A stretch of DNA of 64,000 nt, taken from contig NC_015416.1 in assembly GCF_000204415.1 (NCBI RefSeq), forward strand, positions 2,108,001 through 2,172,000, read 5' to 3'. The DNA is from Methanothrix soehngenii GP6. GTDB lineage: Archaea; Halobacteriota; Methanosarcinia; Methanotrichales; Methanotrichaceae. Below, in pieces: positions 44,912-57,878 of the stretch (the first letter of the stretch is position 1; each line of letters starts with the position of its first letter). The notes below the pieces were generated by a model that saw only the letters and a program-made list of their open reading frames with translations, searched no databases and was not told the DNA's origin. A program made the translations under genes and the position numbers.

Positions 44912-46297
44912 TCACTTCTTCGCCGTGCTTGCGTACTTGGGATGATACTGCTTGATGTATTTGTCGTCAATCCTGGTGAGCATTGCTTCCGGAAGGTCGG
45001 CCAGGAGATCCCATCCGATCTGGAGGGTCTCGAATATGGACCTATCCTCATCTCTGCTCTGGTTGACGAATCTTCTCTCGAACTTGTCGGCGAACTCCAG
45101 GACCAATTTATCGCGTTCAGAGAGAGCCTCTTTGCCCACGATAGCCGCCAGGCCGCGCAGATCATTGCCCTCTGCATAATAAGCATAGAGCTGATCGGAC
45201 ACTGCTCTGTGATCCTCTCGAGTATGGCCTTTTCCGATACCGGAGTTCATCAGCCGGCTTAAGCTAGGCCTTATGTCAACGGGCGGATAGATGCCCTTTC
45301 TGTGCAGCTCTCGGGAGATGAGGATCTGACCCTCGGTGATGTATCCGGACAGGTCCGGAATGGGGTGGGTGATGTCGTCGCCGGGCATGGTCAGGATGGG
45401 GAACTGGGTGATGGATCCCTTCTTGCCCTTGATGATCCCTGCTCTCTCGTACTGGCAGGCCAGGTCGGTGTACATGTAACCTGGGTAGCCACGTCGTCCG
45501 GGCACCTCTTCACGAGCAGCACCCATCTGTCTGAGCGACTCGCAATAGTTGGTCATGTCGGTGTAGATGATGAGCACGTGCATGTCCAGATCGAATGCCA
45601 GGTACTCGGCGGTGGTCAGCCCCAGCCTGGGGGTGAGAATCCTCTCCACAGCCGGGTCATCGGCCAGGTTGAGGAAAACGACTGCTCTCTCCAGAGCGCC
45701 AGTTCTCTCGAAGTCAGCCAGGAAGTGCTGAGCCTCTTCGTTGGTGATGCCCATGGCGCAGAAGATAACTGCGAAGGACTCGGCCTCACCAAGGGCCTTG
45801 GCTTGCCTGGCGATCTGCAGAGCAAGATCGTTGTGAGGCAGACCAGCGCCCGAGAAGATGGGCAGCTTCTGGCCGCGCACCAGGGTATTTGTGCCATCGA
45901 TAGTTGAGATGCCCGTCTGGATAAATGCACGAGGCTTCTCACGGGAAGCTGGATTGATGGCAGCTCCTGCAATATCTCTCAATACATCGGGTACGATCTC
46001 AGGGCCGCCGTCTCTGGGCTTTCCAGATCCGGACAGAACGCGTCCCACGATGGCGGGAGACAATGGCATCTTGATGACGTCTCCGGTGAAACTGACGGCA
46101 GAATCCTTGGACAGACCACCGGTTCCCTCGAATATCTGAATAACCACGATGTCATCAGAGGAATCCAGCACCTGTCCTCTTTTCAGATCTCCGCCAGTTC
46201 TGATTTCGACGAGCTCCATGTAGCCCACTGGCTCGGTCTTCTCCACGAAGATGAGTGGTCCGGAGATCTCAGTAATCGTCTTGTATTCCTTTGTCAT
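44912..46297 (-). CDS. ahaB: A-type ATP synthase regulatory subunit B
   Basis: The 461-residue subunit B alternates with A in the catalytic head and carries non-catalytic nucleotide sites. Family landmarks are [21 protein letters not shown] without a P-loop, [26 protein letters not shown] and [15 protein letters not shown] strong GGAGGG precedes ATG 46297. The gene follows ahaA by 12 bases. Confidence 0.97.
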
Positions 46298-46309
46298 TTT
46301 GAACCCTCC

Positions 46310-48040
46310 TCACTTCAGCGCCTTAAACTCGGCATCCATCTGAGTCAGAACCTTTGCCAGTATGGGCTCATACTCAGCTTCCAGTCTTACCTTGGCCAGA
46401 GCATCCTTGGATGGAACAGATGTGATCTGCCCAACAGGTATGCCTTTCTGGACTGCCTCGAAGGCGTAGTCCCTGTACTTCAGGATGGCTTCCAACAGGT
46501 CGAACTGCTTCTTGTAGGGAGAGAAGGTATCAACCGGGTGGAATGCGCTCTGTGCCAGCCAGAAGTTGATGATCATCCTGGCTACTTCCAGTGTGACCTG
46601 CTGATCCTCAGGCAGCGCATCGGATCCTACGAGCATCACAATCTCTTCCAGCTCGGCGTTCTCCTGCAGTATAGCCATGGCCCGTCTCTTGTTCTTGTTC
46701 CAGTCAGCGCTGACGTTCTCTACGAACCAGGGCTCGAGGTCCAGGTCGTATAGCGAGTAGGAATCCAGCCAGTTGATGGACGGGAAATGCCTGCGCTGCG
46801 TCAGCTTGGAGTCAAGAGCCCAGAATACCTTGACCATTCTCAGTGTGTTCTGAGTAACGGGCTCGGTGAAATCTCCGCCGGCCGGGGACACGGCGCCTAC
46901 AATGCTAACGGAACCCTGTCCGCCATTTAAAACCTCGGCACGCCCGGCACGCTCATAGAAGTCAGCAAGTCTGGCACCCAGGTATGCGGGATAGCCTTCC
47001 TCACCAGGCATCTCTTCCAGACGAGAGCCCATCTCTCTCATGGCCTCTGCCCACCGGGAGGTGGAGTCAGCGGTCATCAGCACATCGTAGCCCATATCTC
47101 TGTAATACTCTGAGGTGGTCATTCCTGTGTAAACAGAAGCCTCACGAGCAGCCACAGGCATGTTGGAGGTATTGGCGTAAACGATGGACCTCTCCATCAG
47201 AGGCCTGCCGGTTCTGGGATCCTGCAGCTCGGGGAACTCATGGAGCAGGTCGGCCATCTCATTGCCACGTTCGCCGCAGCCCACATAGACCACAATGTCG
47301 ACATCTGCCCACTTGGACAGGGTCTGCTGCATAACCGTCTTTCCGGTGCCGAATCCGCCGGGAATGGCTGCCGTTCCGCCTTTGGCCAGGGAGAAGAATC
47401 CGTCTATGACCCTCTGTCCTGTTCTCAGAGGAATGGTGGGTGCCAGTTTTTCTGTAACTGGTCGGGCCTGTCTTACCGGCCACTTATGCATCATGAAGAG
47501 CTTGGTTCCGTCATCCAAGACCGCAATGGTCTCATCAACGGTGAAGTTTCCATCATAGATCTCTTTGATGGCACCGCCCTTTAGGTTGGGTGGGACCATG
47601 ATCTTATGCTTGATAAGAAGTTGCTCTTGGACCTCGCCAATGGCCTGGCCGGGCTTGACCGTATCGCCCTTTTTCACTACGGACTTGAACTCCCACTTCT
47701 TCTTGTGGTCGATGCCGTCTACGAACAGACCCCGGCTGATGAAATCTCCCGATGCCTCTGCCAGCTTGGGTAGCGGCCTTTGAATACCGTCGTAAATCTG
47801 GGTCAGAATGCCTGGTCCCAGTTGTGCTACGAGAGGAGCGCCTGTCTCCTTGACGGGCTCGCCAGGCCTGACGCCGCCCGTATCCTCGTATACCTGAATG
47901 ATATGTTTATTGCCGGAAATGCCGATGACCTCGCTCATCAGGCCTTCCTCGCCGACCAATACCAGGTCGTACATGGAAGCCTTCAGGCCAGTGGCCTGAA
48001 CCAGTGGTCCGGCGACTCGCTTAATTTTCCCTACTTCCAT
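46310..48040 (-). CDS. ahaA: A-type ATP synthase catalytic subunit A
   Basis: The 576-residue catalytic subunit has the P-loop GGFGTGKT near residue 230, the A-subunit-specific non-homologous region before it, and [12 protein letters not shown]. The later [14 protein letters not shown] and [12 protein letters not shown] are also family landmarks. It makes ATP from the ion gradient. Its start overlaps the end of ahaF by 10 bases, implying coupled translation. No intein is present. Confidence 0.97.
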
Positions 48041-48330
48041 AAATCAACACCTATTGCCCTTTTAATCTTCTCTCTCATCTCTGTGCTCTGCTCGGTTCCG
48101 ATGGTAATCATGGTAGGCTTGATAGACTCGGATAACTGCTCCTGAAGCCTCTTGGGCAGCTTATTATAATCCGATTGCTTCAACACCAGAATTCCAACAC
48201 TGGAATCGGCCATGACATCGCCAATCTTTGAGACCATCTCATCTTCCGTGTTGGCAGCATATGACTTCTTGACTCCTGCCAGATTGAACCCGAGGACACT
48301 CTCGCTTCCACCTACAAAAGCAATCTCCAT
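48031..48330 (-). CDS. ahaF: A-type ATP synthase subunit F
   Basis: The 99-residue Rossmann-like subunit F has the start IAFVGGSESVLGFNLAGVK, expected for this family. It binds the central stalk with D and helps regulate turnover. It lies between ahaC (1 base apart) and ahaA (overlapping). Confidence 0.95.
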   Translation of the reverse strand: MEIAFVGGSESVLGFNLAGVKKSYAANTEDEMVSKIGDVMADSSVGILVLKQSDYNKLPKRLQEQLSESIKPTMITIGTEQSTEMREKIKRAIGVDLWK

Positions 48331-48331
48331 T

Positions 48332-49381
48332 TTAGGCCACCACCACTTGTTCCTCTATGAGTTCAGAGGGGAGTCCAGCTTCCTTGCCCCTAACGATCTT
48401 TCTGATGTTGGAAACCTCTGTCTCTTTGCTCACCATATATCCGAGCACCGGCAGGATGGATAGCGGATGATAATTGGAAAGAGCCCATGCATACCGTATG
48501 AGATAAGCCTTTAACCTGGCTTCGACTCTGCTAACGGCGTCAAGATCTGATGTTGCGATATCGGATATTGACGACCAGAAGGGGTATCCCTCCAATCCGC
48601 GCAGAAACTCGCCAAAAGGCTGACCTGCCATGCGGGACAGCTCATCGTGCAGCTTTCCTCCAGGAATAAGGTTCTCCTGTATTACGGCTGCATCGATGCC
48701 TGCTTTGTTCATCCGGAAGAGAGTGATCAGATTCTTGATATCTATCTCCCTGCGAACGTATTTGAGCAGCAGTCCTCCTCCTACCGATAATGTGCCGCCT
48801 ACAGCGCGTTCCATCCTGAAGTAATAGAGCTTGTCCAGTGCATTCTCCAGAGATGCAAGATTCTTGCCATCGTATTGTGCCAGAGCGCTGGCATAATCGG
48901 TGCCATCAAAGGCGGAGATGATATCCTGAATGCTATCCTTCTTCGCCAGCTCCTCGAGGTGCTCTGGGGATAGCTCGCCCGCAGGCACGAGATATTTCAT
49001 GATCTCTGTGTCGGAGGCTCCCGAGAACTTTCCTCGCAGGAGTGTCTTGATGTTCCAGACATCCCAGCGCCTCAGATACTCCAGAATCAGGAATGATGGC
49101 TCGTCTATGGAGACTTCCGCCAGCTTCCTGAAGGTCTTCGCCATATTGTCGAATGTGGCGTGTTCTATCAGATCCACTCCGGAGTAATCCTTGGCGAGCG
49201 CGTCGATTTCCTCTTTGTACTGGGTCTCTTCCAGGTATCGTGCGATCTCTGACATCTCCATGTTCATCATGCGGGGATACATCTCCGCAGGAATGAGCTT
49301 GGTCTTCATCGCTCTGACTCTGCCCGTGATGTAAGCGTACTTCACCGGTAAACCGAACTTCGGCAAACGTAGTACAGGCAT
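48332..49381 (-). CDS. ahaC: A-type ATP synthase subunit C
   Basis: The ~350-residue helical protein connects the proteolipid ring with the stalk (V-ATPase d homologue). [16 protein letters not shown] and the repeated three-fold helical pattern are family features. ATG 49381 is chosen because GGTGAGG lies at the right distance; GTG 49390 is in frame but overlaps the ahaE stop. Confidence 0.95.
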
Positions 49382-49386
49382 AGTCC

Positions 49387-49935
49387 TCACCCGAATAGTA
49401 CCTTGGAAACCTCTTTCATGCGGTTATTAAAGACCTCACGCGCAAGAGTTTCATATGACAAATCGTAACGTAGAGCTCCATCACCGCTCTCAACCACAAC
49501 GCCGCCGATGATATCCAGGTTCCCGCCGTAATTGGGGGCGAGAGAGGATAGGAAGGCCTCATCTCGCTTGTTGGAGTAGACCTTCATATCCTTGAGATCG
49601 TATGGCTCGAGCATCTTCTTAAGCATGGCCTCATTATCCTTCTTGGGAAGATTGGATATCTTCTCAAGGAGCTTCGTCCTTGCTTTCTCCAGGAGATCCT
49701 TGTGAACATTAAGCTCCGATCTCTTAACCTCGAGATTGGCGCTGGAGATCTCCCTGCGCTCGATAGCCTCTATGGCGTGTCCGACCTCAGACTCCTTCCT
49801 GGATTTGATTTCAGCGGCACGTTCCCTAGCTTCATTGAGTATTCTTGCAGCCTCAAGGTCCGCTTCGCTCGTTATCTGAGCGACCTTGTCCTTACTGGTT
49901 GCCAGAACCGACTCAACCACTGCATCTAGTGCCAT
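49387..49935 (-). CDS. ahaE: A-type ATP synthase subunit E (peripheral stalk)
   Basis: The 182-residue protein has a long charged N-terminal helix ([20 protein letters not shown]) and a globular C-terminus with [20 protein letters not shown], the conserved VatE end. With H it forms the peripheral stalk. It precedes ahaC with a close junction. Confidence 0.95.
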
Positions 49936-49963
49936 TGCCTCTCACCCTTTGGAAATGGCCAGC

Positions 49964-50230
49964 TCAGGGTGTCACTATTGCAGAGAAGGGCGTCCAGGCG
50001 AACATCAGGATCAGCGATACAGCGAGGCCGAAGATGATCAGGGTCTCAGGCAGAAGCATGAGGAAAAGACCCTTACCCAGGAATCCAGGCTCCTCAGCCA
50101 CTACACCAACCACAGCCGCTCCGATACCCTGCTCACCAACACCTGCACCGATGCCTGCTAATCCAGTAGCGAGGCCAGCGCCGACAGCTATCAATCCATA
50201 CAGTATTCCCGCATCTGCTACAACTACCAT
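49964..50230 (-). CDS. ahaK: A-type ATP synthase proteolipid subunit K (c ring)
   Basis: The 88-residue protein is a two-helix hairpin with Gly-rich helix 1 (GAGLATGLAGIGAGVGEQG) and helix 2 carrying the ion-binding glutamate E62 in LLPETLIIFG. The helix-1 glutamine Q34 and Thr63 next to the glutamate resemble residues that coordinate Na+ in known Na+-coupled rings, but the Tyr five positions later is Phe. ATG 50230 follows AAGGAGG by 10 bases; TTG 50239 is less likely. It is a simple one-hairpin c subunit, not a fused multimer. Confidence 0.95.
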   Translation of the reverse strand: MVVVADAGILYGLIAVGAGLATGLAGIGAGVGEQGIGAAVVGVVAEEPGFLGKGLFLMLLPETLIIFGLAVSLILMFAWTPFSAIVTP

Positions 50231-50297
50231 TTTCCTCAATCCTCCTTTTTATGAATATTACAATCTGTGCTCATATTTCTAATTTCAAAGATCGCTT

Positions 50298-52331
50298 TCA
50301 TGCCTTCAAGAACCTCCGGACATGTCCGAAGGGGCTATACTCCACTCCACCACCATGCGCGCTGTAGAATTTGGTGAACATCTCCACATAATGCAACCTG
50401 AGAGGATGCATGAAGGGAGAGAGAATTCCCAGCAGAATGTTGATGAAATGCACTGCTACCAATACCATTATGCCTACGATGATCGCAAGTATCGAGAAAT
50501 CGGCACTGTTAGTCGCTCCACCGCTCAACATGGGCATTATGACATAGAACGATAGCTGGTTGGCAGCATATGCCAGACCTACCGAAGCCAAGCCAATGGC
50601 CAGAAGCCTAAGGTAGGATATCAGGTTGCTCACATAGGATGGCACGTGTGCCAGACCCATGGCGCCTTCCGGACCCATGACCATCATCACTATGGATAAT
50701 ACGATCACTGCGGCACCGATGTACACCATGATCATCTGTCCCATGACCAATCCAAGAAGCGCCACGGCGAAGAACACCTGGAAGAGCATCACAGGAAGCC
50801 GCTCGAAATAGGCATGCCTCTTCTCGCCATAGTTCAACTCCGTCTTGATTCCCAGAATGGATCCCACAGAACAATGGATCACGCCGATGAACAGACTCAC
50901 GCCGATCAAAAGCAGAACAGCATTCGTTGCCAATCTATATAACGGGAAGATCCCCAACGGGCCAAGCCTTCCCAGCGGGCCGAAAGTTCCTTCGCCGAAG
51001 AACAAGCCCATCTCCTGAAGCTCAATCATCTCATGATGAGATAGCATTCCTACCATATAGTTCCACAGGCCAAGGGGCCCGAAGATCTCACCGTAGAATA
51101 TGCCGAATATGACTGACCATACTCCCGCAATCATGACGATGTTGATCAGCTGCTGCCACCCTTCTGTCCTGAATCTCTTCTTTAGCAGAGTCAGAATCAG
51201 CAGGATCACAATGCCATAGCCTACGTCTCCCAGGATCATGCCGAACATGATCGGGAAGAAGACGAATATAAGCAGCGATGGATCGAACTCCTTGTACTCC
51301 GGAATGGCGAATAGCCTGGTGATCAACTCATATGGCTTGACAATGCTTGGATTGTCCATCTTGGTTGGAACGTCTTCGCCGCCTTTGACAAGGTCATCGG
51401 CCTCTTTGTCGGCTATCAATTGGACGTCCAGCTTTCCTCCAGCAGCACTCTCCAACTCGCTCTTCAGCCGGCCGTACTGATCGCTAGGAACCCAGCCGTC
51501 TATCACAAAGGCGTTGTCCGTCTCTGCGAACCTGAGAGGAGACTCAGTCTTGCTGACCTGCATCGACAGATACTCATCCGTCGCCAGCATCAGATCTTCA
51601 TATTGCTTCTTCACATCGACAAGCTTCTTATGGAGAGGCGCTAGCTCGCCTTCCAGAGATTTTATGCTGCCATTGAGTGAAGCAATAGCTGAATCAACAC
51701 TGCCTTCGAGCTTGGGAACGGACATCTCAGAGAAACCGTGCTCGGAAAGGACCGCAGATACCTCGCTGGCCTTTTCTGCAGGCACAAATACTGCCACATA
51801 AGTCGCATTCTTGGCGGTGCCGGTAAAGATCTCATTTACTGGAGAGACCCGGGCTACATCTGCATCCACAGGCGTAACAGCAGTGCCTACGAATGTCGCC
51901 AGAGAATCATAACCATGATAAGCTTCCAGGGGCAACGGCAATATGGATAACGGAGTTAAAGCCCTGATCTGATCCTGCTTGGACTTGATCTCTGCTTCTA
52001 TAGCAACGATCCTCTCGTAGGTGGCAGTGACATCGCCCCCCACGTTATTGAGAAGATTGTCCATCTCGGATAGAACCTGTGACTCAGGATATGTCTTCTC
52101 AGGCGCCTTGTTCTTTATATCAAGGTACCTGGTGACCGATCTGAGCTTAATGAGGTTCTCAGAGTACTCCCTGGCTTTGCCTATGGGCTTTCCCAATGCA
52201 AATTCAGGCTGGTTGCCATTGTAATTCACAATGTGCAATAAGCGCAACTCATGCAGCTTTTCTACTACTGGAGATATTACGTCCTTTGACCCGGCTACGA
52301 CCACACGACTCATATTAACGGGCCTAAGCAT
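50298..52331 (-). CDS. ahaI: A-type ATP synthase membrane subunit I (a subunit)
   Basis: The 677-residue protein has a large cytosolic N-terminal half (about 1-340) and seven or eight membrane spans in the C-terminal half, as in V/A-type a subunits. It forms the ion half-channels against the K ring. The segment SNLISYLRLLAIGLASVGLA contains the essential arginine. It overlaps the end of ahaH by 8 bases. Confidence 0.96.
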   Translation of the reverse strand: MLRPVNMSRVVVAGSKDVISPVVEKLHELRLLHIVNYNGNQPEFALGKPIGKAREYSENLIKLRSVTRYLDIKNKAPEKTYPESQVLSEMDNLLNNVGGDVTATYERIVAIEAEIKSKQDQIRALTPLSILPLPLEAYHGYDSLATFVGTAVTPVDADVARVSPVNEIFTGTAKNATYVAVFVPAEKASEVSAVLSEHGFSEMSVPKLEGSVDSAIASLNGSIKSLEGELAPLHKKLVDVKKQYEDLMLATDEYLSMQVSKTESPLRFAETDNAFVIDGWVPSDQYGRLKSELESAAGGKLDVQLIADKEADDLVKGGEDVPTKMDNPSIVKPYELITRLFAIPEYKEFDPSLLIFVFFPIMFGMILGDVGYGIVILLILTLLKKRFRTEGWQQLINIVMIAGVWSVIFGIFYGEIFGPLGLWNYMVGMLSHHEMIELQEMGLFFGEGTFGPLGRLGPLGIFPLYRLATNAVLLLIGVSLFIGVIHCSVGSILGIKTELNYGEKRHAYFERLPVMLFQVFFAVALLGLVMGQMIMVYIGAAVIVLSIVMMVMGPEGAMGLAHVPSYVSNLISYLRLLAIGLASVGLAYAANQLSFYVIMPMLSGGATNSADFSILAIIVGIMVLVAVHFINILLGILSPFMHPLRLHYVEMFTKFYSAHGGGVEYSPFGHVRRFLKA

Positions 52332-52650
52332 GTAACGACCCCATAAACTCCTTTAGCAAATATTCAACTGCTTTGTCCAGCTTGGCACTGGCGCTGCCGC
52401 TCATTGAGGCGACGTTTTTATCGCCACTCTGGATGATTGACTGCTTCTTTGCCTTTACATCGCTCTCTGCTTTGGCAACGCTCTTGTCATAGTAGTCCTG
52501 TGCATCAATCTCGGCGGATTTGACGAGGTTCATTGCTTCGGTAGTGGCAGCGGCTATTTTTTTCTCCTTCTCCTCCAGAGCCTGCTGGACTGCAGCCCTG
52601 GATTGGGCCTCTGCCGATTTGATTTTCGATAAGATTTCGTCTCTAGCCAT
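52324..52650 (-). CDS. ahaH: A-type ATP synthase subunit H (peripheral stalk)
   Basis: The 108-residue coiled-coil protein (AEAQSRAAVQQALEEKEKK) is the first gene of the operon. It pairs with E in the peripheral stalk. A candidate TATA box lies about 100 bases upstream. Confidence 0.92.
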   Translation of the reverse strand: MARDEILSKIKSAEAQSRAAVQQALEEKEKKIAAATTEAMNLVKSAEIDAQDYYDKSVAKAESDVKAKKQSIIQSGDKNVASMSGSASAKLDKAVEYLLKEFMGSLHA

Positions 52651-52751
52651 CTGATCCCTCTACATATTCCCTCACTACACCACTCCTGTTTTTCAAACAG
52701 CGCTACATCACTTTTGGCTCGTGATAAACGCTCTTTTGCATCCTCATCTAC

Positions 52752-52761
52752 CAATATAAAC
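52752..52761 (-). promoter_or_regulatory. Candidate TATA box of the aha operon
   Basis: Read on the minus strand, CCGAAGAGTTTATATTGG contains a TATA-like TTTATATTGG with a purine-rich BRE-like sequence before it. It lies about 100 bases upstream of ahaH and is the best promoter candidate for the whole operon. Confidence 0.45.
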
Positions 52762-52806
52762 TCTTCGGTTTTGGTTTGAAGAGAGGAGGGGCCATTGCCT
52801 CATCGC

Positions 52807-53909
52807 TTAACATCCCCAAAATTTCAGAGCAACTTCCAGCTCTTTGTGGTCTTTTGCATATTCTTTTAAGTCAATATGCTTTAACCAGGCCTCTGTCGCC
52901 TGCACCATTGCCCGCGCTCCAGCGGTGGTACCATCCGGATGGCCGTGGACGCCGCCCCCTGCCTGGACGATGCAGTCTATGCCATAGCCATCCAGGTTCC
53001 CGTGGACCTTTGCTGGATAGATCCCGCCCGAGGCCACGGGGAAGAACCTCTTATAGCTACCCATTCCTCTCGCAGAGCGTCGCGGCACAGGTCGTTCTCC
53101 TCCCTCTCAAGAGACATCTTGCCCATGCAGCTTCCGGTATGCAGGTTAGTGCCTCCCACCATGCGCACCAGCTTGGCTATGACCAGCATGGAGATGCCGT
53201 GGCTCTTGTCCCTGGCAGAGGCGCCTTGCAAGGTTCTGTGCACATGTATGGGGACGTTCAGGTTCTGGGAAAGGGGCTCAAGGGAGGAGAAGCCTGCGGG
53301 GAGGACATCGATCATGACCATATTGGCCCCATGGTCCACTGCTTCTTCCGCCCGCTCCAGGATTCTGTCCGCCCCAGCGGTGACACTTACTGCATAGAAG
53401 GCCTTCTTGCCCGTCTCCTTCTCCACCCGGCCCAGAGCGGACATGACCGCCTCCAGCCTGAGAATAAGGGGGCAAAAGCCCTGATCGGTGAGGGCCTCGT
53501 CGTCCTTGACCAGGCCCATCCTGGGCTTGACGATGGTGCCGACGAGGGGCTGGTCGTAGACGCCCAGAATCCTTCATGCATCCTCTATCCCGAACCGGGG
53601 ACCCTTATGCGCCCGGATTATGCTCTGAGGAAAGATGACATCCTGCAGGCGCACCTTCTTGAGGTTTCCTGCCACCACCGAGAGGTACTGGGGGACGTTT
53701 CCCGGCTCGAAGAGATCATCGGGAAATGCGATCTCGACCTCACTGCCCTGAACGGATATCACCCGCGCGGCCAACGGATTGTCCTGGCCCCGCACATCGG
53801 TCCAGTTGCCGGTCGGCTGCTCGGCAGCAATGGCCTCCGCCGCCTTTTAGATGGGAAGGTCGGTTTCAACATGATATTTTGCAGCAAGTTCCATTACCGC
53901 TCCTGGCAT
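52807..53909 (-). pseudogene. Decayed form III (archaeal) RuBisCO large subunit
   Basis: Three minus-strand segments reconstruct most of a form III RuBisCO, from KYHVETDLPI through VGTIVKP, LVKDDEALTDQGF and HVHRTLQGAS to [15 protein letters not shown]. The gene is broken. An in-frame TAA at 53847-53849 follows residue ~20. Frameshifts lie near 53575 and 53080. About 20 residues are missing in frame between VKPRMG and LVKDDE, and about 8 after VVAGNL. The active-site HRAMH-type motif has become HRTLQ. No function as carboxylase is likely. Confidence 0.88.
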
Positions 53910-54158
53910 CAATCATAGCCACCCATCAGACCGAGCAAGATCGTTCGCTATTAATAGCATTAGGCTTCATTGGCCGACTCCGCAGATAGATATCTCTGGC
54001 AAATACAAGTACTTCTGCAAAGATACCGAGAATTTGCGATTCACATTCATCAAAAAACGGCAATTAGAGAATCGATAATACATTTTTTTCAGTATGGGGC
54101 AACATCTTTATTATCGAGGAAAAACTTGCAGACTGCTAAAAGATATCGAGGAGAATCC
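53910..54158. other. Intergenic region between RuBisCO relic and FBPase
   Basis: The region presumably holds the FBPase promoter. The FBPase frame stays open through it, but no signal supports translation before ATG 54159. Confidence 0.4.
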
Positions 54159-55097
54159 ATGGTTGACGGCATAAATAATCATACTCGATTTATCGTTGAT
54201 CTGAGGCGGCACATGTGGATGAGTGGCATCGAGGTGGAACTGCGGCGGCTCATCTGGCAGATTGCTGTTGTTGGCAAGTATATCTCTGCAAAGATCCACG
54301 AATCAAACCGAAAGCTGGCCGGCTTCAAAAACGTTTATGGCGAGGACCAACTGGCGCTGGACCGCATCTCCGACGACATATTGAAAAATATGCTGCGGAA
54401 CTCCGGATTTGTCCGCGAGTATGCCTCCGAGGAGCAGGAGGATATCATCACCATCGGTCAAGGGCAGGAACAGTATATTGTCACCGCTGATCCAGTGGAC
54501 GGCTCTTCCCTGGTGGATACCAATCTGGCCATTGGGACGATCATCGGCATCCACAGAAATTCAATATTCGACTGCGGCAAAAATTCGATGGTCGCCGCTC
54601 TTTATATCACCTACGGCCCGCTCATCACCATGATCTACTCTGCAGGAAAGGGCGTGCATGAGTTCGTATTGGATCGCGAAGGAGAGTATGTCCTGTCCGA
54701 GGAGAATATCAGGCTCAATGAGAGAGGATCCATCTTTTCCCCTGGCGGTCTGCGCAAAGACTGGACGGACAGCCATCATAGGTATATCGATAAGCTGGAG
54801 GCAGATGGCTACAAGCTGCGCTATAGCGGTGGTTTCGTCCCCGATATTAATCAGGTCATCATCAAGAGGGGAGGGTTGTTCACCTATCCGGCACTGAAAA
54901 AATCGCCTCAGGGAAAGCTGCGGTTGCTGTTTGAGCTTCAGCCCATGGCCTTTATTGTGGAGCAGGCAGGAGGCATGGCAACTGATGGGAAAGACGATAT
55001 ACTATCCCTCAAAGTGAATTCAGTTAATCAGCGCTCGCCCATCTATATCGGTTCGAGGACGGAAGTGACCATGGCGAGAGAATTCCTGTCGCAGTAA
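54159..55097 (+). CDS. fbp: Class I fructose-1,6-bisphosphatase
   Basis: From ATG 54159 (GAGGAG 6 bases upstream) the protein has 312 residues. It has the class I FBPase metal and substrate motifs: EDQLALDRISDD, EYASEEQEDI and ADPVDGSSLVDTNLAIGTIIGIH (the DPLDGSS motif with V for L). The C-terminal LLFELQPMAFIVEQAGG is also typical. It hydrolyses fructose-1,6-bisphosphate in gluconeogenesis. Class I enzymes are uncommon in archaea, so transfer from bacteria is possible. The aldolase gene follows after 54 bases. Confidence 0.92.
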   Translation: MVDGINNHTRFIVDLRRHMWMSGIEVELRRLIWQIAVVGKYISAKIHESNRKLAGFKNVYGEDQLALDRISDDILKNMLRNSGFVREYASEEQEDIITIGQGQEQYIVTADPVDGSSLVDTNLAIGTIIGIHRNSIFDCGKNSMVAALYITYGPLITMIYSAGKGVHEFVLDREGEYVLSEENIRLNERGSIFSPGGLRKDWTDSHHRYIDKLEADGYKLRYSGGFVPDINQVIIKRGGLFTYPALKKSPQGKLRLLFELQPMAFIVEQAGGMATDGKDDILSLKVNSVNQRSPIYIGSRTEVTMAREFLSQ

Positions 55098-55151
55098 ATG
55101 AGTTATAATTAACATATAAATAATAAATACATTAGAGGGAAAGGTGCAGCA

Positions 55152-56546
55152 ATGATTTACCAGAATGAAGATCAGCTGAAAAGGGGATGCGAATCCATAC
55201 TCACCTGTCAAGAGGGTGATGTTCGCGTCCTGAATGAGCCCAGTTTTAGAGAAAAGCTAATCGATGATTTGATCTATACTGCCGTCTTCAGCCCCGACCC
55301 GGCTATTCAAGAAGCAGCGGCATATCTGATTCGTCGGGGCGCTGCCAGTATGGGAATTTTGCCTGCATCGATCCAATCCCTGTATGAGGCCATGGGCAGA
55401 AAAGAGGTCAGCGGGTTTACCGTTCCAGCGATAAATATCCGGGGCATCACTTACCACGTGGCGCAAGCGGTATTCAGGGCGTCAATGAAAGGCAATGTTG
55501 GTCCGGTCATTTTCGAAATCGCCCGTTCGGAGATAGGCTATACCAAGCAAAGGCCGCGGGAGTATGCCTGTGCCGTATTGGCGGCAGCGATCAAATCCGG
55601 ATGGCGGGGCCCGGTCTTCCTGCAGGGCGATCATTTTCAGATAAACGCCAAAAAGTTCGCCGCGGACGGGGAAAAGGAGACCCAGTCGGTCAAGGATTTG
55701 ATCCGGGAAGCCATCCAGGCCGGCTTTTACAATATCGACATCGATACCTCCACCCTGGTTGATCTATCTAAGGCCACCATCAAAGATCAGCAGAGATTGA
55801 ACTACACCTTGGCGGCGGAGCTGACTGCCTTGATTCGCGATCTGGAGCCGGAAGGCATAACCGTCTCCGTGGGTGGGGAGATCGGTGAGGTTGGCGGCAA
55901 AAACAGCACAGTCGAGGAGCTGCAGACATTCATGGACGGCTACCTGGAAGAGCTCAAAAAGCGTGGACCGGCTTTAAAGGGAATCAGCAAGATCAGCGTG
56001 CAGACCGGGACGACCCATGGCGGCGTGCCCCTGGCCGACGGCACAGTGGCTAAGGTTAAGATCGATTTTGAGGTGCTGGAGAAGCTCTCGGAGACCGCCC
56101 GCGCCGAATACGGCCTCTCAGGGGCGGTTCAGCACGGGGCATCAACCCTTCCAGATGAGGCTTTTGATCGCTTTCCAGCTACCGGAACGGCCGAGATTCA
56201 CCTGGCGACAGGCTTTCAGAACATAATCTATGATAGCAGGAGCTTCCCTGGCCAGCTGCGGTCTAAGATCTATGATCACCTGCGGGGAGAATTGAAAGGA
56301 GAATGGAAGGAAAAGGATACGGAAGAGCAGTTCATCTATAAGACCCGCAAGAAGGGCTTCGGACCGTTCAAGCCTGAGCTGTGGCAGCTGCCGACTGACG
56401 TCCGGGATGAGATCTGCGCAGAACTGGAAGGCAAATTCGCCTTTTTATTCGATAAGCTCATGGTTATGGGCACCCGGCCAGTGCTGGATCAATTCATCAA
56501 GCCTGCGGATGTGCCGCTGGAAATGCCGAAGATGCTGAAGGGCTAA
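55152..56546 (+). CDS. Class II fructose-bisphosphate aldolase-like protein with N-terminal extension
   Basis: The 464-residue protein has a class II (zinc) aldolase barrel from about residue 85. It has FTVPAINIRG, the zinc-binding His in LQGDHFQ, GGEIGEVGG, QTGTTHGG and QHGAST. The ~80-residue N-terminal part (FREKLIDDLIYTAVFSP) and the ~70-residue C-terminal part are longer than in standard FbaA. It could act on fructose- or tagatose-bisphosphate. GGGAAAGGTG precedes ATG 55152. It is in tandem with the FBPase, so the two likely act together. Confidence 0.85.
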   Translation: MIYQNEDQLKRGCESILTCQEGDVRVLNEPSFREKLIDDLIYTAVFSPDPAIQEAAAYLIRRGAASMGILPASIQSLYEAMGRKEVSGFTVPAINIRGITYHVAQAVFRASMKGNVGPVIFEIARSEIGYTKQRPREYACAVLAAAIKSGWRGPVFLQGDHFQINAKKFAADGEKETQSVKDLIREAIQAGFYNIDIDTSTLVDLSKATIKDQQRLNYTLAAELTALIRDLEPEGITVSVGGEIGEVGGKNSTVEELQTFMDGYLEELKKRGPALKGISKISVQTGTTHGGVPLADGTVAKVKIDFEVLEKLSETARAEYGLSGAVQHGASTLPDEAFDRFPATGTAEIHLATGFQNIIYDSRSFPGQLRSKIYDHLRGELKGEWKEKDTEEQFIYKTRKKGFGPFKPELWQLPTDVRDEICAELEGKFAFLFDKLMVMGTRPVLDQFIKPADVPLEMPKMLKG

Positions 56547-56762
56547 AAGTTATCAATTAAGCAATGCCGGCATAAATGCGGCTGTGTTGGAGAACATCAG
56601 GAATGATCTGGGGAACTCCCAGACGCTCTCTTTTCAGGAGATCCCGCATTAGAGATTTTGGTCCACAAAGATTTATGACCATAAAGGCCATAATATATCG
56701 TATCTATTAGAGATAATAGTGATAAATACGCCGTTCTCCAGGGAGCGTCAGGTGGGATTGAT
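56547..56762. other. Intergenic region upstream of the aldolase/phosphatase
   Basis: It contains a TATA-like CATAATATATCG near 56690. GGTG and GATAT lie just before the next ATG. No other feature was seen. Confidence 0.4.
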
Positions 56763-57878
56763 ATGACAAAGATAACTATAAGCTTAATAAAAGCCGATGT
56801 AGGCGGCTATCCCGGCCACTGTTCGGTCCATCCAGAATTGATCAAGACTGCGGAGGAGAAGCTGGAAGAGGCCAAAAAGTCCGGCTGTCTGGTGGACTAC
56901 AGGGTTATGGCCTGCGGCGACGATCTGGAGCTGCTCATGAGCCACAGGACGGGCTGCGACTGCGGCGACATCCACGGCCTAGCCTGGGAGACATTCGAGG
57001 CAGCCACTGAGACGGCCAAGGGCCTCAAGCTTTATGGCTATGGCCAGGACCTGCTGGCGGACGCCTTCTCCGGAAACATCAAGGGCATGGGTCCAGGGGT
57101 TGCGGAGATGGAGATAACCGAGCGCACGGCAGAGCCCATCATCGCTTTTATGATGGACAAGACCGAGCCCGGAGCCTTCAATCTCCCCATCTTCAAGATG
57201 TTTGCCGATCCATTCAACACCGCCGGGCTGATAATAGATCCCTCCTTCCATCACGGCTTCACTTTTGAGGTCTGGGATATCCTAGAGCACAAGAAGGTCC
57301 TCATGAACTGCCCGGAGGAGATGTACGATATGCTGGCGCTGATCGGTGCCAAGAGCCGATATGTGATCAAGAGAGTCTTTGCCAAGCCCGGCAGCAAGAT
57401 ACCCCAGAGTGAGCCGGTGGCGGTGATCAGCACTGAGAAGCTCTACCAGACCGCTGGCAAGTATGTGGGCAAGGACGATCCCGTGGCCTTAGTGAGGTCG
57501 CAGTCCGGCCTGCCCGCGCTGGGCGAGGTGCTCGAGCCCTTCTCCATCGGGCACCTGGTGAGCGGATGGATGCGGGGCAGCCACAACGGGCCACTTATGC
57601 CCTGCTCATTTGATACCGCTCATCCCACCAGGTTCGACGGCCCGCCACGGGTGATAGCCGCCGGATTCCAGCTAGCCGAGGGGAAGTTCGTGGGGCCGGT
57701 GGATCTCTTCAATGACCTGGCCTTCGACCGCGTCCGGCAGAGGTGTCTGGAGATCACCGATTACATGAGGGCGCACGGCCCCTTCGAGCCGCACCGGCTG
57801 CCCATGGAGGAAATGGAGTATACCACCCTGCCTCATGTAATGGATTGCCTGAGAGATCGGTTCGTGGATACGGAGTAA
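56763..57878 (+). CDS. Bifunctional fructose-1,6-bisphosphate aldolase/phosphatase (archaeal type)
   Basis: The 371-residue protein is a full-length FBPA/P, the ancestral gluconeogenic enzyme that both forms and dephosphorylates fructose-1,6-bisphosphate. The N-terminal SLIKADVGGYPGH (D12, H19) supplies metal and catalytic ligands. The aldolase Schiff-base residues appear as Tyr234 and Lys237 in KYVGKDDP. DCGDIHGLAWETF and GSHNGPLMP are also conserved. It is the usual methanogen enzyme; its presence makes the neighbouring class I FBPase and aldolase seem redundant. Confidence 0.95.
   Translation: MTKITISLIKADVGGYPGHCSVHPELIKTAEEKLEEAKKSGCLVDYRVMACGDDLELLMSHRTGCDCGDIHGLAWETFEAATETAKGLKLYGYGQDLLADAFSGNIKGMGPGVAEMEITERTAEPIIAFMMDKTEPGAFNLPIFKMFADPFNTAGLIIDPSFHHGFTFEVWDILEHKKVLMNCPEEMYDMLALIGAKSRYVIKRVFAKPGSKIPQSEPVAVISTEKLYQTAGKYVGKDDPVALVRSQSGLPALGEVLEPFSIGHLVSGWMRGSHNGPLMPCSFDTAHPTRFDGPPRVIAAGFQLAEGKFVGPVDLFNDLAFDRVRQRCLEITDYMRAHGPFEPHRLPMEEMEYTTLPHVMDCLRDRFVDTE

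Follow-up and report, generated by a model that had tools for sequence, protein, structure and literature searches.

Decay of the native form III RuBisCO gene of Methanothrix soehngenii GP6 and its probable displacement by a RAD-type enzyme

Does the broken RuBisCO gene that stands beside the A-type ATPase operon of Methanothrix soehngenii GP6 record the loss of a pathway from this lineage, or the exchange of one enzyme for another within a pathway that was kept? The gene lies in the window, the 64,000-nucleotide stretch of the GP6 chromosome analyzed here. The original prediction described it as a form III RuBisCO in decay, took RuBisCO to be lost from the lineage, and read an enlarged fructose-bisphosphate block next to it as the sign of a change in carbon metabolism.

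The relic and its native slot

Codon-level alignment with 17 intact orthologues, which are 387 codons long in the relatives that carry them, puts the start codon of the relic at 53894 and the end of its stop codon at 52807 on the minus strand. There is a RuBisCO relic at the predicted place. This alignment and the position in the native slot identify it as what is left of the form III gene native to the Methanotrichaceae; a decayed form III RuBisCO had been proposed. The host genome, labeled G000 among the genomes compared, comprises 3,026,645 bases in two contigs (the larger of 3,008,626) and is 99.96% complete. The gene and its lesions, each lesion placed by the ortholog alignment, are as follows.

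52807..53894, minus strand: pseudogene of the native Methanotrichaceae form III RuBisCO (codon-level alignment, 17 intact orthologues)
53847..53849, minus strand: nonsense codon TAA at relic codon 16
53660..53665, minus strand: junction of an 18-nt in-frame deletion, relic codons 79-84
53574..53576, minus strand: nonsense codon TGA at relic codon 113
53512..53519 (near 53516), minus strand: junction of a 57-nt in-frame deletion
53057..53060 (about 53059), minus strand: -1 frameshift at relic codon 304

With two nonsense codons, in-frame deletions of 6 and of 19 codons, and a single -1 frameshift, the relic has no intact reading frame, and we therefore class it as a pseudogene. The original prediction of one in-frame stop and two frameshifts was right about the decay and wrong in both counts; its two in-frame deletions, one of them removing some 20 residues between VKP and KDDE, are both present, the larger taking out 19 codons (about 133-151) between VKPRMG and LVKDDE. 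The TGA at codon 113 is CGA in the closest intact relative. Two conserved motifs are altered, KPK to KPR and HRTMH to HRTLQ, the second being the change that the prediction had noticed in an HRAMH motif. Homology nevertheless runs through the whole gene, the pieces between codon 1 and the stop being 69-86% identical in amino acid sequence to the intact orthologues, with E-values down to 8e-82, a similarity far beyond chance. The native protein of an intact relative scores 390 bits against its best model, TIGR03326, which is below the cut-off of 497.

Two neighbors define the slot.

52324..52650, minus strand: ahaH, first gene of the A-type ATPase operon, which marks the native RuBisCO slot in relatives
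53970..57878, plus strand: class I fructose-bisphosphatase (FBPase), a divergent class II aldolase, and a fructose-bisphosphate (FBP) aldolase/phosphatase, on the other side of the slot

The native RuBisCO is complete in 37 of 50 Methanotrichaceae genomes and cut by a contig end in one more. When the locus is compared across the family, the intact gene occupies the same slot in every readable intact locus (25 of 25 reached by the contig), directly upstream of ahaH and in the same orientation. This fixed position of the native RuBisCO upstream of the A-type ATPase operon, which corresponds to 44912-53894 on the minus strand of the window, extends across Methanotrichaceae genera, and we know of no earlier description of the linkage. 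One genome of another genus (G043, genus g11) has in place of the native gene a longer form III RuBisCO of 429 aa, 42% identical, which stands away from the ATPase operon (L128:7831-9063).

On the other side of the slot, relatives usually have either the FBP aldolase/phosphatase alone or the block of FBPase, aldolase, and FBP aldolase/phosphatase. An FBPase-aldolase block adjoins an intact native RuBisCO in G012, G017, G003, and G007, as does at least the FBPase in G006; the block is thus unrelated to the loss of the native gene, and we reject both its supposed tie to RuBisCO decay and its reading as a mark of changed carbon metabolism. The class II aldolase of the window (464 aa; 55152-56546, plus strand) falls far under every NCBIfam aldolase cut-off, with a best score of 51.6 bits, and its sequence suggests a divergent aldolase of unassigned substrate.

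Repeated breakage of the native gene

GP6 is not the only carrier of a broken native gene. In G019 the gene has a -1 frameshift at codon 73, a +1 frameshift at codon 271, and missense changes at conserved positions; all of these lesions differ from those of GP6, and an ancestral lesion common to the two is rejected. In G013 and G056 only fragments of the gene are found at the same slot, where the G056 contig ends, and in G046, a member of another genus, the gene at this slot has frameshifts and stops (L125:8050-9210). In an EF-2 tree, G013, G056, and G016 form one clade, G019 falls with G018 in another, and GP6 stands apart, a placement that calls for at least three independent decays within Methanothrix. 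Taken together, the alignments and the tree show independent breakage of the native gene in at least three lineages of Methanothrix and in another genus. The apparent absence of the native gene from six further assemblies (G002, G015, G018, G023, G016, and G042) was not scored as loss, since atpI, next to the slot, is missing from those assemblies as well; as a control, atpA was found in G000, G012, G020, and G023 and not in G002, G018, G016, or G042.

The RAD-type RuBisCO and competing explanations

A search of the whole GP6 genome found one other RuBisCO gene, the only intact one, at C1:2607530-2608981 (L005:7531-8982), 447 kb from the relic. Its product scores over the NF010002 cut-off, contains the RAD insert, is closest to the family of the Methanococcoides burtonii enzyme (the closest solved structures are 8vgs and 5mac, the latter being that enzyme), and keeps the active-site lysines and metal ligands K173, K175, K199, D201, E202, K336, and S405. 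Between Methanothrix species the dN/dS of the gene is 0.06-0.07, and it is under purifying selection. By these features it is a RAD RuBisCO (form II/III or 'IIIB', of the M. burtonii type), with predicted activity. Its presence intact on the same chromosome rules out a loss of RuBisCO function, and with it the loss from the lineage that the original prediction had assumed.

The partner enzymes are also in place. GP6 has intact genes for phosphoribulokinase (PRK), AMP phosphorylase, and ribose-1,5-bisphosphate isomerase, the last two scoring over their model cut-offs (AMP/pentose bisphosphate pathway). The PRK of M. concilii (another name of M. soehngenii) has been shown to be active, and Hps and Fae are reported for this species (PMC5241800). 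The genes of the reductive hexulose-phosphate (RHP) pathway, to which PRK belongs, were reported to be transcribed in an M. concilii bin; the text of that paper does not specify the RuBisCO gene behind the reads (PMC6411985).

Besides GP6, the RAD gene occurs in G019, which has the same pair of dead native gene and intact RAD gene; in G024, a metagenome-assembled genome (84% complete, 6% contaminated) in which both RuBisCO genes are seemingly intact; and, as a fragment with Ns at a contig end, in G016, a close relative of G013 and G056, both of which hold only native fragments. In the three carriers with a readable native slot, the native gene is dead in two and intact in G024. No RAD gene was found in the relic bearers G013, G056, and G046 (86-96% complete assemblies), nor any other RuBisCO in G046 (96% complete). 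Carriers of the RAD-type gene thus lie in or near lineages with a broken native gene. The association of the RAD gene with native decay is only suggestive, since G024 has both genes intact and three relic bearers have no detected RAD gene.

In a tree, the full-length RAD copies from Methanothrix group together as a single clade (support 100/100). A clade uniting them with the Methanosarcinaceae copies is not rejected (p 0.388 in a tree test), and with the position of the Methanothrix clade thus unsettled we name no donor. No neighboring genes are common to the GP6 site and the sites in G019, G024, and G016, or to G016 and either G019 or G024. The left flank of the GP6 site is syntenic in relatives, where the RAD gene is absent, even in the carriers G019 and G024; the right flank was not found in the relatives compared. 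Synonymous divergence (dS) of the RAD gene between GP6 and the other carriers is 0.51-0.57, against 0.8-1.3 for most host genes (EF-2 0.96-1.03, atpI 0.93-1.06). These values are suggestive of a RAD gene younger than the host split, and lateral spread of the gene within the genus seems likely; since the dS of atpA and atpB is also low (0.57-0.67 between GP6 and G019), the case for lateral spread stops short of proof. In GP6 the RAD gene adjoins a tRNA-His guanylyltransferase-like gene and a 298-aa ORF (L005:5518-7322), and the GP6 copies of these adjoining genes are unusually diverged from those of relatives (dS 2.3-3.0).

We think it probable that the native enzyme has been displaced by the RAD-type enzyme, the pathway having been kept and the enzyme swapped, and that such displacement of the native gene has recurred. 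The lineage would have acquired an intact RAD-type gene at another chromosomal site; the native form III gene would by that acquisition have become dispensable and would then have decayed in place; and ribulose bisphosphate (RuBP) from PRK and from the AMP route would now be carboxylated by the RAD enzyme. We infer both the order of events, with acquisition first and then the decay that it permitted, and the takeover of the native enzyme's role by the RAD enzyme. Since G013, G056, and G046 combine a broken native gene with no detected RAD gene, breakage may not need a replacement. Those same three genomes are what lends some weight to a different account, in which the native function became unneeded, the RAD gene has a different task, AMP scavenging for example (RAD enzymes have been described as RuBP scavengers [PMC5399129]), and loss and gain are unrelated. 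We consider this unlikely, although worth keeping in mind: PRK is kept, and is active in the species (PMC5241800), so that a RuBisCO is still required for its RuBP, and of the RuBisCO genes only the RAD gene is intact.

It is also conceivable that the relic was kept for a new role, for example to serve the ATPase operon as a leader or promoter or to encode a short protein. One further feature bears on this.

52690..52772, minus strand: BRE/TATA-like block and short inverted repeat upstream of ahaH, conserved family-wide, just outside the relic

In this block the BRE/TATA-like sequence AAAACCGAAGAGTTTATATTGGTAGATGAGGATG precedes an inverted repeat that hardly varies, TTTATCAC-N9-GTGATGTAGCGC; the two are probably, to judge from their motifs and conservation, the promoter of the A-ATPase operon and an operator or leader hairpin. 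As a structured RNA the hairpin was rejected: it is near-invariant, shows no real covariation, and folds no better than shuffled sequences. Over the last 25 codons of the native RuBisCO (52807-52881, minus strand), synonymous variation among intact genes is 0.30, against 0.45 elsewhere (permutation p 0.00025), and this 3′ end is retained in the relics of G019, G013, and G056; it may carry an upstream regulatory element. The low synonymous variation and the retained 3′ end would suit a relic kept for a new role. The promoter-like block, however, sits in the intergenic stretch, outside the gene, and Rfam returned no match over threshold, and we regard retention for a new role as improbable.

The decay itself appears to be late. 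In a codon model applied to three quartets, dN/dS on the relic branch is 0.12-0.20 against a background of 0.05-0.07; equality of the two is rejected (2dL 6.2, 17.5, and 8.4), as is neutrality along the whole branch. This rise is as expected for late loss of constraint in the gene, and if constraint ended abruptly the neutral phase would occupy roughly a tenth of the relic branch. The G019 relic branch shows no rise (dN/dS 0.066), so that the decay there is either more recent or partly an assembly error. That the GP6 relic is itself a sequencing or assembly artefact, the gene being intact in the cell, is very hard to credit: the relic is known from one strain's assembly, and errors of this kind could account in part for the G019 frameshifts, one of which lies in a G run, but the GP6 relic has five distinct lesions, of which two are clean deletions and two are stops made by substitution, its dN/dS is raised, and the genome is in two contigs and 99.96% complete.

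Comparison with known systems and meaning

That M. concilii has a RAD RuBisCO, and M. thermophila and M. harundinacea form III enzymes, was reported by Gunn et al., who also remarked on rampant RuBisCO transfer (PMC5399129). In the papers searched on RuBisCO and pseudogenes in M. concilii and Methanothrix we found no earlier report of a dead native copy, and the RuBisCO pathway of Methanothrix has been treated as one enzyme set genus-wide (PMC10470525). What appears to be new here is the presence of the relic in the native slot, the decay of this gene on several independent occasions, and a PRK species apparently dependent on a RAD-type enzyme alone. Kono et al. (2017) tied PRK to form III-a RuBisCO (PMC5241800). 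The GP6 relic is an ortholog of the form III gene of the Methanotrichaceae and PRK is kept, as in their scheme, but the native gene is dead, which makes this PRK species an exception to the rule. The second RuBisCO resembles the M. burtonii enzyme (5MAC; PMC5399129) in its RAD insert and active-site lysines and is 78% identical to Methanosarcinaceae members; it differs in residing in a PRK-bearing genome and in belonging to a Methanothrix clade of its own outside the Methanosarcinaceae clade, in a position not firmly resolved. Methanomethylovorans hollandica likewise has a RAD and a non-RAD RuBisCO in one genome (PMC5399129), but both are annotated as genes there, whereas the non-RAD copy is dead here. 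As in other cases of gene displacement by a foreign analogue, a functional analogue is found elsewhere and a native pseudogene at the old slot; the difference is that here the displacement has apparently been repeated, between the same two enzymes, in more than one lineage of a single genus.

In Methanothrix, a major methane producer, one species with an active PRK has lost the usual form III partner of that enzyme and keeps only a RAD-type RuBisCO, usually described as a RuBP scavenger. In a broader reading, which we offer tentatively and would not yet back at even odds, a RAD RuBisCO is moving between Methanothrix species and, wherever it establishes itself, taking over the PRK-dependent pathway while the native gene decays, an ongoing and repeated displacement by which the form of RuBisCO and the pathway become uncoupled. 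Since the native enzyme, the RAD enzyme, or apparently both occur in sister species, these lend themselves to a natural comparison of what each form of RuBisCO can do, and the case of GP6 cautions against inferring a pathway from the form of RuBisCO that a genome encodes.
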